This document shows positions 28,566 through 32,241 of a DNA stretch of 64,000 bases, piece after piece. How positions within the stretch are numbered: the first letter of the stretch is position 1; each line of letters begins with the position of its first letter. The notes under the pieces were generated by a model. The model searched no databases and was not told where the DNA came from. It saw only the letters and a list, made by a program, of their open reading frames with translations. The DNA comes from Kordiimonas sp. SCSIO 12603 (GTDB lineage Bacteria > Pseudomonadota > Alphaproteobacteria > Sphingomonadales > Kordiimonadaceae), in assembly GCF_024398035.1 (NCBI RefSeq), contig NZ_CP073748.1:2905001-2969000 (forward strand), read 5' to 3'. The position numbers were made by a program, and so were the translations under genes.

Positions 28566-29093
28566 TTACTTCAGCTTATACTTGATATTCGCCTTAAATG
28601 CTTCGACTTCGAGCGGGGCATTTCTATAACCGTATCTGGCAACATCCTGAATATGCTGGACGATCACTTGATCAAGGCTTGAACGCTCAATTTGCAGCAC
28701 ATGCACAAGTTCATGTGCGAGTTTAGGCCGATCAAGCTTATATCCCTCGCGGACATAAATTGAATATCCAAAGACCTGTGCATTATTGATAATATCTGGA
28801 CCAACAAGTCCCAACTTCTCACCAAGGACTTTCAGCGCCAGGTTTTCATAGGGAAACGGGACCTCATCTACATAGATGACTCTAACTTTTTCTGGGTATT
28901 GAACGCCAACATCTTTGGCAAGTTTTAACTCAGTTTCATTAAGCGGCTCGCCAAGCTCTAATCCTTTTTTATCTACGTCCTTTGCCCATTCGATATATTG
29001 CGGCAACAACTGTGCATAAGCTTGTTCCTGTGCATTTGCAGAGAGAACCTGAAAGCTCATGAGGACAGCAACAAGTATTGGTTTCAACATCAT
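28566..29093 (-). CDS. Exported HExxH-containing protein of unknown function
   Basis: A 175-residue protein with a signal peptide (MMLKPILVAVLMSFQVLSANAQ). The mature part includes KLAHELVHVLQIERSS, an HExxH zinc-binding motif, and a downstream Glu in PLEVEAFKA that could be a third ligand. The layout resembles small DUF4157-like or M-clan metallopeptidase domains, but the core is short and activity is unproven. It converges on serB with a 14-base gap and follows the MarR gene by 16 bases on the same strand, so the two are probably co-transcribed. Confidence 0.6.
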   Translation of the reverse strand: MMLKPILVAVLMSFQVLSANAQEQAYAQLLPQYIEWAKDVDKKGLELGEPLNETELKLAKDVGVQYPEKVRVIYVDEVPFPYENLALKVLGEKLGLVGPDIINNAQVFGYSIYVREGYKLDRPKLAHELVHVLQIERSSLDQVIVQHIQDVARYGYRNAPLEVEAFKANIKYKLK

Positions 29094-29109: not shown

Positions 29110-29604
29110 CTACGTTTCTATAAGTTCTTCATTATATTTGGGAAACTTATCACATAGTCTGTAAAGCAGCGACTGGCGGTTCAGCGCTCGCTCCATCAAT
29201 TTCACACCCTGCTCAAGGTCAATACCGATTTCCTGCCACATCACATCATAGACATGCTCAAAATCTTTCATGATCGCAACAATCCGCTCGGCCTCAGGGC
29301 GGGCAGCAGCCGAAATATCATAGACCCGCTTGCGAGAATCCTTTCCATCAGGAGAAGATGTAAAAAATCCATCTTTTACACTCCCTTTCAGGCGGCTTTC
29401 CAAAACCTGACGCGAAATACCGATGTGTTTTGATAGCTCCGTCGAAGACATTGCTCCCTTGGTATAAAGTGCGAGAACAATAGAAATCTTGTTGGCATGC
29501 AAACTGATACCTAACTGATCAAACACCTCAGTACCTTGAATACTGATTAATTCAGTCGCTCGGAATAAAATCGCGCCAAACTGCGGGCTTCGTATATCAG
29601 ACAT
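29110..29604 (-). CDS. MarR-family winged-helix transcriptional regulator
   Basis: A 164-residue MarR-type regulator. The DNA-binding domain is LYTKGAMSSTELSKHIGISRQVLESRLKGSVKDGFFTSSPDGKDSRKRVYDIS, with the wing in the DGKDSRKR segment. Helical dimerisation regions lie on both sides. A partly palindromic element containing TTTACGCAA (29622-29655) lies 18 bases upstream of the start codon and is a likely autoregulatory operator. It precedes the HExxH gene. Confidence 0.8.
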   Translation of the reverse strand: MSDIRSPQFGAILFRATELISIQGTEVFDQLGISLHANKISIVLALYTKGAMSSTELSKHIGISRQVLESRLKGSVKDGFFTSSPDGKDSRKRVYDISAAARPEAERIVAIMKDFEHVYDVMWQEIGIDLEQGVKLMERALNRQSLLYRLCDKFPKYNEELIET

Positions 29605-29621: not shown

Positions 29622-29655
29622 TTTACGCAAATTTTTCCGAAATTTTTTGCACAAA
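29622..29655. promoter_or_regulatory. Candidate MarR operator
   Basis: TTTACGCAAA at the left end and TTTGCACAAA at the right end form an imperfect inverted repeat (two mismatches) over 34 bases, centred in an A/T-rich segment just upstream of the marR start. MarR proteins usually bind such palindromes at their own promoters. Confidence 0.45.
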
Positions 29656-29662
29656 TCAAGTA

Positions 29663-29692
29663 GAAAAAGAGAGGCTGGATACCAGCCCCTTC
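29663..29692 (-). terminator. Rho-independent terminator after the metallophosphoesterase
   Basis: GGCTGG (29673-29678) pairs with CCAGCC (29682-29687) in a tight hairpin. On the minus strand it is followed by TCTCTTTTTC. It lies 14 bases beyond the metallophosphoesterase stop codon. Confidence 0.75.
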
Positions 29693-29705
29693 TTATATTT
29701 CGCCC

Positions 29706-30872
29706 TTAAAGCTGTTCTTTTGTACCATCGTCCAACAAACGGAACGCATCCACACCATTTAGAAGCAAGCCTTCAGAACGTTTGCTAGGGAAACTGCCCC
29801 GATAGTCTTTCGGGTGCTTAACATTCACAGCGAATACTTTACCGTCATAATGCTTCCCAACTGACCATTGCGGTTGGTGCCCAACAACTACCGCCTTAGC
29901 GCCGAAGTGTTTTAGTCCTTTTTCCACAGTTTCCTGGCTTAGATCCGCTTCAAAGTAACCACGGTACCAGGAAGGACCTTTACGTCTGTGAACCAAAATC
30001 GCTTCTGCGGCTTCATCTTGCGTTGGCACATAGGCCTGACGGTACTGATTGCGTACAATAGTGTTTAACTCATCAAGGCTATAACCCGCTTCAACAATAT
30101 CAGGGTGCAATCCACCATGAACAAACAGATATCCGTTAATCTGCTCAATTGTGTTTTTGCTCGCCATCCAGCGCCCTAAAAGAGCATCATCCCCAAAAAG
30201 ATCAAACTCTTGTTTTTTTAAGGCAGCAGCAACATAGAAATATTTGTCTGCCGCTTTCTGGAAATTCCCCTGTAAGTTCTTGATCTCATGGTTACCAAGG
30301 ATAAAATGAACAGTACCACCTGCCGCTTTTGCCTCTTGTTCAAGCTTATAAATAAACCAAAGAACCTGTGTTGTTGAATCGCCGCGATCAACAAAATCAC
30401 CAACCAATACAAGATGGCCTTTACCGAAAGCCCAGTTTAGATCAGCATCAATCACTTGCTGGGCAATCAAGAAATCCCGGAAAGTCTTGAAGTTACTTTC
30501 AACGTCAGAGATGGCAACAATCGGCTCTCCATCGTTATATACCGCTTTCGGTGTTTCCACATGCGGTGTTATTGTTAGATTAAATGTTGAATCCTCAAGA
30601 GGGAAATACACCTCTGCATCTAATTGGCCATCCGGCGCCATATATTCTTTCTCGATATAAAAGCCTTCTTTACCGCCACCTTTTATATAATGCGCAGCAA
30701 TATTATCTCCTTCGTAAAACACATGAGGGCCCTCGCCTCCAAGCTTATACGCAAGATCATTGTCGCCCATATCAATATCAACACCAAAGGCCACCGCCGC
30801 AGTGATAAGAGTTACCAACAACAAAGTTGCCGTGACAAAGAAATGTTTCAAATTGGTTAGGATAAGTCTCAT
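29706..30872 (-). CDS. Membrane-anchored metallophosphoesterase
   Basis: A 388-residue calcineurin-like phosphoesterase. It has an N-terminal hydrophobic segment (HFFVTATLLLVTLITAAVAFG) acting as signal or anchor, a beta-rich region of about 90 residues, then the catalytic domain with AISDVESN, LVGDFVDRGDSTTQVL, FILGNHEIKN, FVHGGLHPD and VVGHQPQW. These supply the Asp, Asn and His ligands of the two-metal site. The active site should face the periplasm. A PPP-like (Shewanella Shelp) relation fits GDFVDRG and GNHE. The ATG at 30872 has GGAG upstream, and the leader preceding it exists a second time at 31071. Confidence 0.88.
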   Translation of the reverse strand: MRLILTNLKHFFVTATLLLVTLITAAVAFGVDIDMGDNDLAYKLGGEGPHVFYEGDNIAAHYIKGGGKEGFYIEKEYMAPDGQLDAEVYFPLEDSTFNLTITPHVETPKAVYNDGEPIVAISDVESNFKTFRDFLIAQQVIDADLNWAFGKGHLVLVGDFVDRGDSTTQVLWFIYKLEQEAKAAGGTVHFILGNHEIKNLQGNFQKAADKYFYVAAALKKQEFDLFGDDALLGRWMASKNTIEQINGYLFVHGGLHPDIVEAGYSLDELNTIVRNQYRQAYVPTQDEAAEAILVHRRKGPSWYRGYFEADLSQETVEKGLKHFGAKAVVVGHQPQWSVGKHYDGKVFAVNVKHPKDYRGSFPSKRSEGLLLNGVDAFRLLDDGTKEQL

Positions 30873-30961
30873 AACTTTTCTCCATTTATAGACGCTACGC
30901 TGCGTCGTTATTCTTGGCCAAATACTTGGCAGTGGTGCCCCGTTCACGCTCACTTACAATC
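30870..30961 (-). repeat. Leader repeat, copy A (directly before the metallophosphoesterase)
   Basis: A 92-base segment that holds the start codon, ribosome site and 5' leader of the metallophosphoesterase. It aligns without gaps to copy B at 31071-31162 with about 71 of 92 positions identical by hand count. Both ends are well conserved and the centre is variable. A GACGC/GCGTC hairpin lies just upstream of the ribosome site. In the variable centre this copy can form GCCAA/TTGGC. Confidence 0.75.
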
Positions 30962-31010
30962 CAAACGCTCTAAACTTTAGGCTGCGTATGTCAGGCATAT
31001 CGCTTTCTAT

Positions 31011-31073
31011 TTATTTATGCAAGTTTTTGCGCAAAATATTGCGTAAATAAATATTACCTTCACAATGAAACAT
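31011..31073 (-). other. 20-codon ORF following leader copy B
   Basis: The ATG carried by leader copy B opens a frame of only 20 codons (MFHCEGNIYLRN...) before TAA at 31011. It has the same ribosome site as the metallophosphoesterase. It may be a remnant of a duplicated gene, a leader peptide, or meaningless. The stretch 30962-31070 contains no other gene. Confidence 0.3.
31026..31047. promoter_or_regulatory. TTTGCGCAAA / TTGCGTAAA motif cluster
   Basis: A perfect 10-base palindrome TTTGCGCAAA (31026-31035) is followed after three bases by TTGCGTAAA (31039-31047), the reverse complement of the element found at the marR promoter and upstream of the leuA region. It lies upstream of leader copy A, where a promoter for the metallophosphoesterase would be expected. 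Confidence 0.35.
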
Positions 31074-31162
31074 AACTTTTCTCCATTTACGGACGCCTTG
31101 CCGCGTCGTTATCGTTAGGTGAACACCAGGCAAAGGTGTCCTGTTCGCGCTCACTTATAATC
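31071..31162 (-). repeat. Leader repeat, copy B
   Basis: Second copy of the 92-base leader, same orientation, 201 bases from copy A. Conserved parts include the CATAACTTTTCTCCATTTA end (start codon plus ribosome site on the minus strand) and the CGCTCACTTA-AATC end. The variable centre can form ACACC/GGTGT instead of the GCCAA/TTGGC of copy A. No full gene follows it. Confidence 0.75.
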
Positions 31163-31203
31163 ATGAGCATCGTTCGGTTTATTCGGTTGTCTTAAGTTAG
31201 TGG

Positions 31204-31752
31204 TTACATCTGCCGTTTAAGGATACTGAGCAGTTTGCCAGTTAAACGGCCAATTACCGCACCAAGCACTAAAGCAATTGGCACCAACCACCATCCTAGA
31301 AGCTCAGCAGTTCCCGGCGGTTGATTAGATATCATACCAACTACGAACGCTTCACCGTGCTGCGCTGTCCAAACACCAACGCTATCGGCTAAAAATGGTT
31401 TTGCTAACCCCAACAGAACCAGCGCGGCTGCCACCATATACCCAAATACTGCGGTGCCGTAATAAAGGCTTTTACCCACACCTCTTTTCACCGCTTCGAT
31501 CGCTTTAAAACCTTTTGGGGGTGGCGCGCCATCAACGATGTGATCGACATAAGCACTAGCAAGGTCACGCGGATTACCAAAATTATCTAGTATATCGCTA
31601 ACTGTAACCTCTGCTCCTTGTTCTTCCAGCCGATCATAAATATGGCTTTCAATTTCGCGGATCACCTCATTGGCGGTTGCTTTATCAAGGCGGGACAGAT
31701 AGCGACCGAGTGATTTAAGGTATTCGTGAATCAATTCCCTATCAGACATCAT
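31204..31752 (-). CDS. HAAS-domain membrane protein (DUF1700-like)
   Basis: A 182-residue protein. The N-terminal helical domain (about residues 3-72: LIHEYLKSLGRYLSRL, IREIESHIYDRLEEQG, FGNPRDLASAYVDH) matches the HAAS/DUF1700 signalling domain. Two or three membrane helices follow (about 97-120 and 148-172). Such proteins are typically encoded right after a PadR regulator, as here (9 bases). They are thought to act as membrane sensors or anti-regulators. The exact signal is unknown. Confidence 0.8.
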   Translation of the reverse strand: MMSDRELIHEYLKSLGRYLSRLDKATANEVIREIESHIYDRLEEQGAEVTVSDILDNFGNPRDLASAYVDHIVDGAPPPKGFKAIEAVKRGVGKSLYYGTAVFGYMVAAALVLLGLAKPFLADSVGVWTAQHGEAFVVGMISNQPPGTAELLGWWLVPIALVLGAVIGRLTGKLLSILKRQM

Positions 31753-31761
31753 GTTCTCTCC

Positions 31762-32139
31762 CTAATTTGATTGCGCTTTGTTAAGCTCTGAAGGTCTGCC
31801 CTCCAGTATGCATTCAATATCTGCTGCTGACTTGCGCCAACGAGCGCTGACTGTGGGAAGCACCTTTTCACCAAGTTTGGTAAGTCGGTAATACTTTCTG
31901 GGCCTTGCACCTTCTTCCTGTCGCCAGTCTGCATCGATTACCCCTTCCCGTTTGAGCCGGTCCAGAAGAGGATACAGTGTACCCTCTGTAATCGTCACAG
32001 TTTCAAACTCATGCAGGAAGTTAAGAAGCTGCAAGCCGTACAAATCCCGGCCTTTCAGAGCAGCCATTATCACCAGTTCCAGGGTACCCTTCCGGTGTTG
32101 TACATCCCATTTTGCTTCAAATTTTTCTTGGTCTGTCAT
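31762..32139 (-). CDS. PadR-family transcriptional regulator
   Basis: A 125-residue PadR-type winged-helix regulator. RKGTLELVIMAALKGRDLYGLQLL, VTITEGTLYPLLDRLKREGVIDADW and RPRKYYRLTKLGEKVL form the canonical domain. The short C-terminal helix gives it the PadR-s2 size. The start at 32139 has AAGG 7 bases upstream, and an ATG 13 codons earlier lacks a ribosome site. It forms a two-gene operon with the HAAS membrane protein. Confidence 0.88.
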   Translation of the reverse strand: MTDQEKFEAKWDVQHRKGTLELVIMAALKGRDLYGLQLLNFLHEFETVTITEGTLYPLLDRLKREGVIDADWRQEEGARPRKYYRLTKLGEKVLPTVSARWRKSAADIECILEGRPSELNKAQSN

Positions 32140-32241
32140 AGCGTAACCTTGTTTAACATAGTTACTATGTATTACCAAGTATGATGCATTACAACATGCT
32201 GGGCGATATTTTTTTTTAAAAACCTATAAAAACACGGCGCC

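Follow-up and report, generated by a model that had tools for sequence, protein, structure and literature searches.

The DNA upstream of a calcineurin-like phosphoesterase gene in Kordiimonas sp. SCSIO 12603 raises the question of why the leader of this gene occurs twice. Throughout, the window is the whole stretch of 64,000 nucleotides that was analysed. A repeat search of the window identified a 92-nt repeat family consisting of copy A (30870-30961) and copy B (31071-31162), both on the minus strand and in the same orientation, which align without gaps at 71 of 92 positions (77%). This agrees with the initial annotation, which had described two gap-free copies of about 77% identity and left two readings open: a structured cis-acting RNA, or what remains of a gene duplicate after loss of its coding part. 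No further copies exist in the 3,850,845-base (3.85-Mb) Kordiimonas genome, and the E-value of the second copy in a whole-genome search (6e-14) rules out chance as the source of the repeat. The locus contains the following features.

31762-32145, minus strand: padR-type regulator gene, first gene of the operon (Pfam PadR, E-value of 2e-18), a neighbour kept in relatives; the ATG at 32145 is assumed, as the open frame extends to 32178
31204-31752, minus strand: gene for a HAAS-domain membrane protein, second gene of the operon (Pfam HAAS, E-value of 9e-14)
31071-31162, minus strand: leader copy B, the ancestral HAAS-phosphoesterase intergenic segment with Shine-Dalgarno (SD) sequence and ATG, without a phosphoesterase behind it
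31011-31073, minus strand: 20-codon ORF following leader B (MFHCEGNIYLRNILRKNLHK)
31014-31047, minus strand: O2, a 34-bp three-part dyad (TTTACGCAA-TATT-TTGCGCAA-AAAC-TTGCATAAA), putative duplicate of the marR operator
30954-30998, minus strand: marR' stub of 14 codons (MPDIRSLKFRAFGL), homologous to the 5' end of marR (MSDIRSPQFGAIL), with its stop within leader A
30870-30961, minus strand: leader copy A, immediately before the phosphoesterase gene, delimited by the repeat alignment
29706-30872, minus strand: calcineurin-like phosphoesterase gene (Pfam Metallophos, E-value of 2e-16; PDB match, E-value of 2e-50)
29663-29688, minus strand: terminator-like hairpin and T run 3' of the phosphoesterase gene (GGGGCTGGTATCCAGCC...TTTTT), read from the sequence
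29622-29655, minus strand: O1, a 34-bp dyad (TTTGTGCAA-AAAA-TTTCGGAA-AAAT-TTGCGTAAA), 17 nt 5' of the marR ATG
29110-29604, minus strand: MarR-like winged-helix regulator gene (Pfam MarR, E-value of 0.0013, below the gathering cut-off)

The relatives of the phosphoesterase in the PDB are 1v73/2zbm (psychrophilic phosphatase I / protein-tyrosine-phosphatase; E-value of 2e-50). The MarR-like protein shares 45% identity with the gene product of a congener that passes MarR_2. Directly after marR and on the same strand, positions 28566-29093 encode a 175-aa protein with a signal-like N-terminal stretch and without a Pfam family, possibly a MarR-controlled partner gene.

Both 92-mers end in an SD sequence and an ATG on the minus strand, and both carry the GACGC/GCGTC arms. 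Copy A opens the phosphoesterase, which starts at 30872, and copy B opens the 20-codon ORF, as the initial annotation had it. The ends of the copies are conserved, as it described; taken alone, the mismatch-free 3' end of 19 nt is not unusual (a clean run of at least 19 has a P of about 0.08). The 21 mismatches between the copies comprise 16 transitions and five transversions. We rejected the leader as a conserved coding sequence, as the mismatches favour none of the codon phases (7/6/8) and every frame contains stops or encodes a poorly conserved peptide. The 20-codon ORF was likewise rejected as a conserved peptide because its sole post-start substitution relative to the sister species K. 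laminariae is non-synonymous; MFHCEGNIYLRNILRKNLHK is a by-product, formed where the deletion joint continues into O2.

Could the leader be a structured cis-acting RNA, such as a riboswitch or an RNA resembling a thermometer, whose two copies either form a tandem element or serve different genes, copy B belonging to the 20-codon ORF? The conserved ends, the GACGC/GCGTC hairpin in both copies, a mild excess of 5-bp hairpins (P of about 0.07 per copy) and the well-folding antisense strand of copy B (z of -3.0) might be consistent with this. Folding of both copies and a covariance search had been suggested as checks, and neither favoured an RNA. On the transcribed strand, folds scored z of +0.47 (A) and -1.53 (B) against shuffles, which is no stability beyond that of shuffled sequence. 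A covariance model built from four sequences (both copies from each of the two sister genomes) and run on 30 family genomes was convincing in this genome and its sister K. laminariae only; two weak matches, in genomes G023 (25.7 bits) and G007 (23.5 bits), map to unrelated sites and were put down to chance. A cmscan search against Rfam 15 returned nothing relevant up to an E-value of 10, in line with the earlier remark that no known riboswitch class could be matched.

Patterns of substitution point in the same direction. Comparison of copies A and B with each other and with those of K. laminariae yielded no compensatory pair, a lack that the initial annotation had named, together with absence of transcription, as speaking against an RNA element. 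A six-sequence comparison yielded one pair changed on both sides, within a helix that is otherwise broken in that relative. The GACGC/GCGTC stem is invariant among A, B and the K. laminariae copies, and thus uninformative on structure, and it is absent from the next relatives, genomes G021 and G028. The divergent centre had been described as keeping hairpin potential in each copy. However, the GCCAA/TTGGC hairpin occupies alignment columns 32-36/41-45 and the ACACC/GGTGT hairpin columns 24-28/36-40, and neither is intact in the opposite copy, so they do not represent one conserved structure. As neither the Rfam search, nor single or consensus folding, nor the counts of pairs, nor the covariance model over 30 family genomes supported the RNA element, we consider it highly improbable. 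Rather than a new regulatory RNA, leaders A and B are ordinary operon spacers bearing a ribosome site.

The stretch between the copies gives a different answer. About 90 of its 109 bases align colinearly with sequence 3' of the phosphoesterase gene, running through an AT-rich dyad into the start of the marR coding sequence (inter-copy ATGCCTGACATACGCAGCCTAAAGTTTAGAGCGTTT versus phosphoesterase-downstream ATGTCTGATATACGAAGCCCGCAGTTTGGCGCGATT). The full alignment of the two regions scored 33, where the maximum among 2000 Markov sequences was 21. For the marR part alone, the alignment of 36 nt at about 72% identity scored 18, a value reached by none of 5000 Markov sequences. The spacing from dyad to start is also similar, with 17 nt from O1 to the marR ATG and 15 nt from O2 to the start of the stub. 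Judged by these alignments, the inter-copy stretch is the DNA that follows the phosphoesterase, namely a putative operator and the start of marR, which is more specific than the earlier proposal of a duplicated gene's relic and supports it.

The observed order along the locus is leader B, [phosphoesterase missing], O2, 14-codon marR stub, leader A, phosphoesterase, O1 and marR. There are thus two sets of leader, dyad and marR start, alike in order and orientation, and the first set lacks the phosphoesterase body and the terminator; the terminator-like hairpin at 29663-29688 has no counterpart in the inter-copy stretch. This arrangement points to two events, a tandem duplication and a deletion. 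The 92-mers are paralogous copies of an ordinary HAAS-phosphoesterase intergenic segment, and we regard them with good confidence as the scar of an old tandem duplication in which one phosphoesterase copy was lost. No remnant of the lost phosphoesterase could be demonstrated: the 19-23 nt from the ATG of leader B to O2 have no significant match, and a 12/14-nt match considered as such a relic was not significant. Nor do we claim a GATT microhomology at the duplication junction, as the letters do not align exactly. None of the genomes examined carried both phosphoesterase copies.

We then surveyed the surrounding operon in relatives, searching 80 loci by tblastn with the proteins of the window. 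Another genus of the family has the three-gene unit padR-HAAS-phosphoesterase, which is also conserved in Alteromonadaceae, Rheinheimera, Thalassotalea, Psychrosphaera and Kangiellaceae. In these relatives a single gap of about 20-170 nt separates HAAS from the phosphoesterase, compared with 331 nt in the Kordiimonas sister pair. In the two nearest outgroups, G021 and G028, the gap is about 140-160 nt long, with no leader duplication in it. Given the one short gap in the relatives, a single leader is the ancestral state and the 331-nt gap with its two leaders a derived one; the unduplicated arrangement expected of outgroups to a tandem duplication, padR-HAAS-phosphoesterase with a single short gap, was thus observed. 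Conservation of the unit extends across distant marine proteobacteria (window 29706-32145; loci L045-L047, L050-L052, L055, L069, L074, L095 and L119). As in other PadR-HAAS operons (PF03551 with PF22564), padR is followed by a gene for a HAAS membrane protein and then by a third gene. Here, in contrast, the third gene encodes a calcineurin-type phosphatase, and the 331-nt gap with its duplicated leader is peculiar to the two sister species. A literature search for the PadR-HAAS-phosphoesterase operon or a Kordiimonas MarR found nothing relevant.

Two other origins of the repeat were considered. Copy B and the marR stub may have recombined in from a diverged locus of another Kordiimonas lineage. 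The copies differ by 23%, more than the species do, yet both are near-identical between the sister genomes, which would fit such a xenologous insertion. The same picture is, however, expected from an old duplication. Moreover, the family sample contained no possible donor, and both the leader and the leader-phosphoesterase-marR arrangement are absent from its other genomes, so we consider an insertion unlikely. Two insertions of a small mobile repeat, such as a MITE or REP-like element, are least plausible of all, to the point of being nearly dismissible. The element is short, repeated and intergenic with an inverted repeat nearby, but the genome has no copies beyond these two, which lie at one locus in the same orientation, and the sequence between them is colinear host sequence. 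Tandem duplication followed by gene loss remains our preferred explanation.

Comparison with K. laminariae adds a further observation on this region. The 92-mer element is 99% identical, and the intergenic stretch of 334 nt has four differences. Fourfold sites differ at 133 of 982 positions in eight neighbouring genes and at 6 of 167 in the phosphoesterase gene. Intergenic divergence is lower than at the neighbouring fourfold sites (p of 2e-13), while the comparison with fourfold sites of the phosphoesterase gave p = 0.09. As the low divergence reaches into the phosphoesterase, local recombination, rather than constraint, may account for it. Over positions 29700-31250, divergence is about 1-1.5% across phosphoesterase and intergenic DNA and 4-6% in many flanks, so this block is possibly a recombined one.

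We next looked at the dyad shared by O1 and O2, with consensus TTTRYGCAA-N4-TTKCGSAA-N4-TTGCRYAAA. Allowing up to three mismatches, the 34-bp pattern has two sites here and another two in K. laminariae; the control count was zero, and zero sites are expected by chance in the window. Because the pattern was derived from the two sites of this genome, the K. laminariae sites serve as the independent check. The 9-4-8-4-9 architecture also occurs at the starts of other Kordiimonas MarR genes, and relatives of the MarR protein within the genus have related half-sites upstream of their genes, for example TATACAAT..ATTGTACAAT..ATTGTATA or TTACGCAATATATTGCGCAATATATTGCGTA. CAA-N4-TTG-N2-CAA-N4-TTG sites with the centre TTGTACAA or TTGCGCAA were found in six genomes, and those inspected precede such regulator genes. 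More generally, Kordiimonas MarR-like genes have a three-half-site dyad near their start codons, with outer arms resembling TTTATACAA/TTGTATAAA, a centre of TTGTACAA or TTGCGCAA and 4-base spacers (observed at L126, L127, L128, L129, L131, L135, L136, L139, L145 and L146). The half-site letters differ by regulator, which possibly reflects a specificity code.

Autoregulated operators of the MarR family are palindromes at the regulator's own start. O1 resembles these, as the dyad lies at the start of the regulator gene, 17 nt before the marR ATG, in a position common to relatives and with an architecture repeated at other Kordiimonas MarR genes. Unlike in such systems, a second, putative operator lies away from marR, in an operon gap that it reached by duplication. 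As each sister genome has the dyad at exactly two sites, and other MarR genes of the genus are preceded by the same architecture, O2 is probably a duplicated MarR operator. The sole inter-copy difference from K. laminariae falls within O2, where TTTACGCAA...TTGCATAAA is replaced by TTTATGCAA...TTGCATAAA, giving perfectly symmetrical outer arms; this is consistent with, but no proof of, a site under selection. A scan found no sigma-70-like promoter around O2.

From these homologies, we infer the following history. A segment spanning the leader, the phosphoesterase, the marR operator and the first ~40 bases of marR would have been duplicated in tandem, after which the upstream phosphoesterase copy and its terminator would have been deleted. 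Leader B, the operator copy O2 and the 14-codon marR stub would then be left over 5' of leader A and the surviving phosphoesterase. Leader A would act as a plain 5' region loading ribosomes onto the phosphoesterase, and leader B and the 20-codon ORF would be by-products. O2 is likely the sole part of the scar that matters, as a displaced putative MarR operator upstream of the surviving gene. It is predicted to be probably still bound by the MarR encoded just downstream of the phosphoesterase, which may thereby have come under MarR control; O2 would add predicted repression by MarR to a gene otherwise transcribed with padR-HAAS. That MarR binds O2 and alters phosphoesterase expression is a tentative proposal, to which we give a little less than even weight. 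We hold equally cautiously, just short of an even chance, that duplication and gene loss transplanted this putative operator into the padR-HAAS-phosphoesterase operon and so created dual control by PadR and MarR.

The scar can be compared with bacterial tandem duplications that give a gene a new promoter or activate it; in one report, spontaneous tandem duplication rapidly activates transferred genes (PMC11111574). The two cases are alike in that a tandem duplication alters the DNA upstream of a gene. They differ in that the duplication here would be old, with one gene copy lost, and the captured sequence is a putative repressor operator. The candidate regulatory RNA is removed, and a readable evolutionary scar stands in its place. 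If MarR binds O2, the locus would be a clean natural case of duplication and deletion placing a repressor site before another gene. The one-gap ancestral operon persists in relatives and is available for comparison. If the proposal is true, Kordiimonas would have a MarR regulon of two sites, and living relatives would allow its ancestral state to be set against the derived one.
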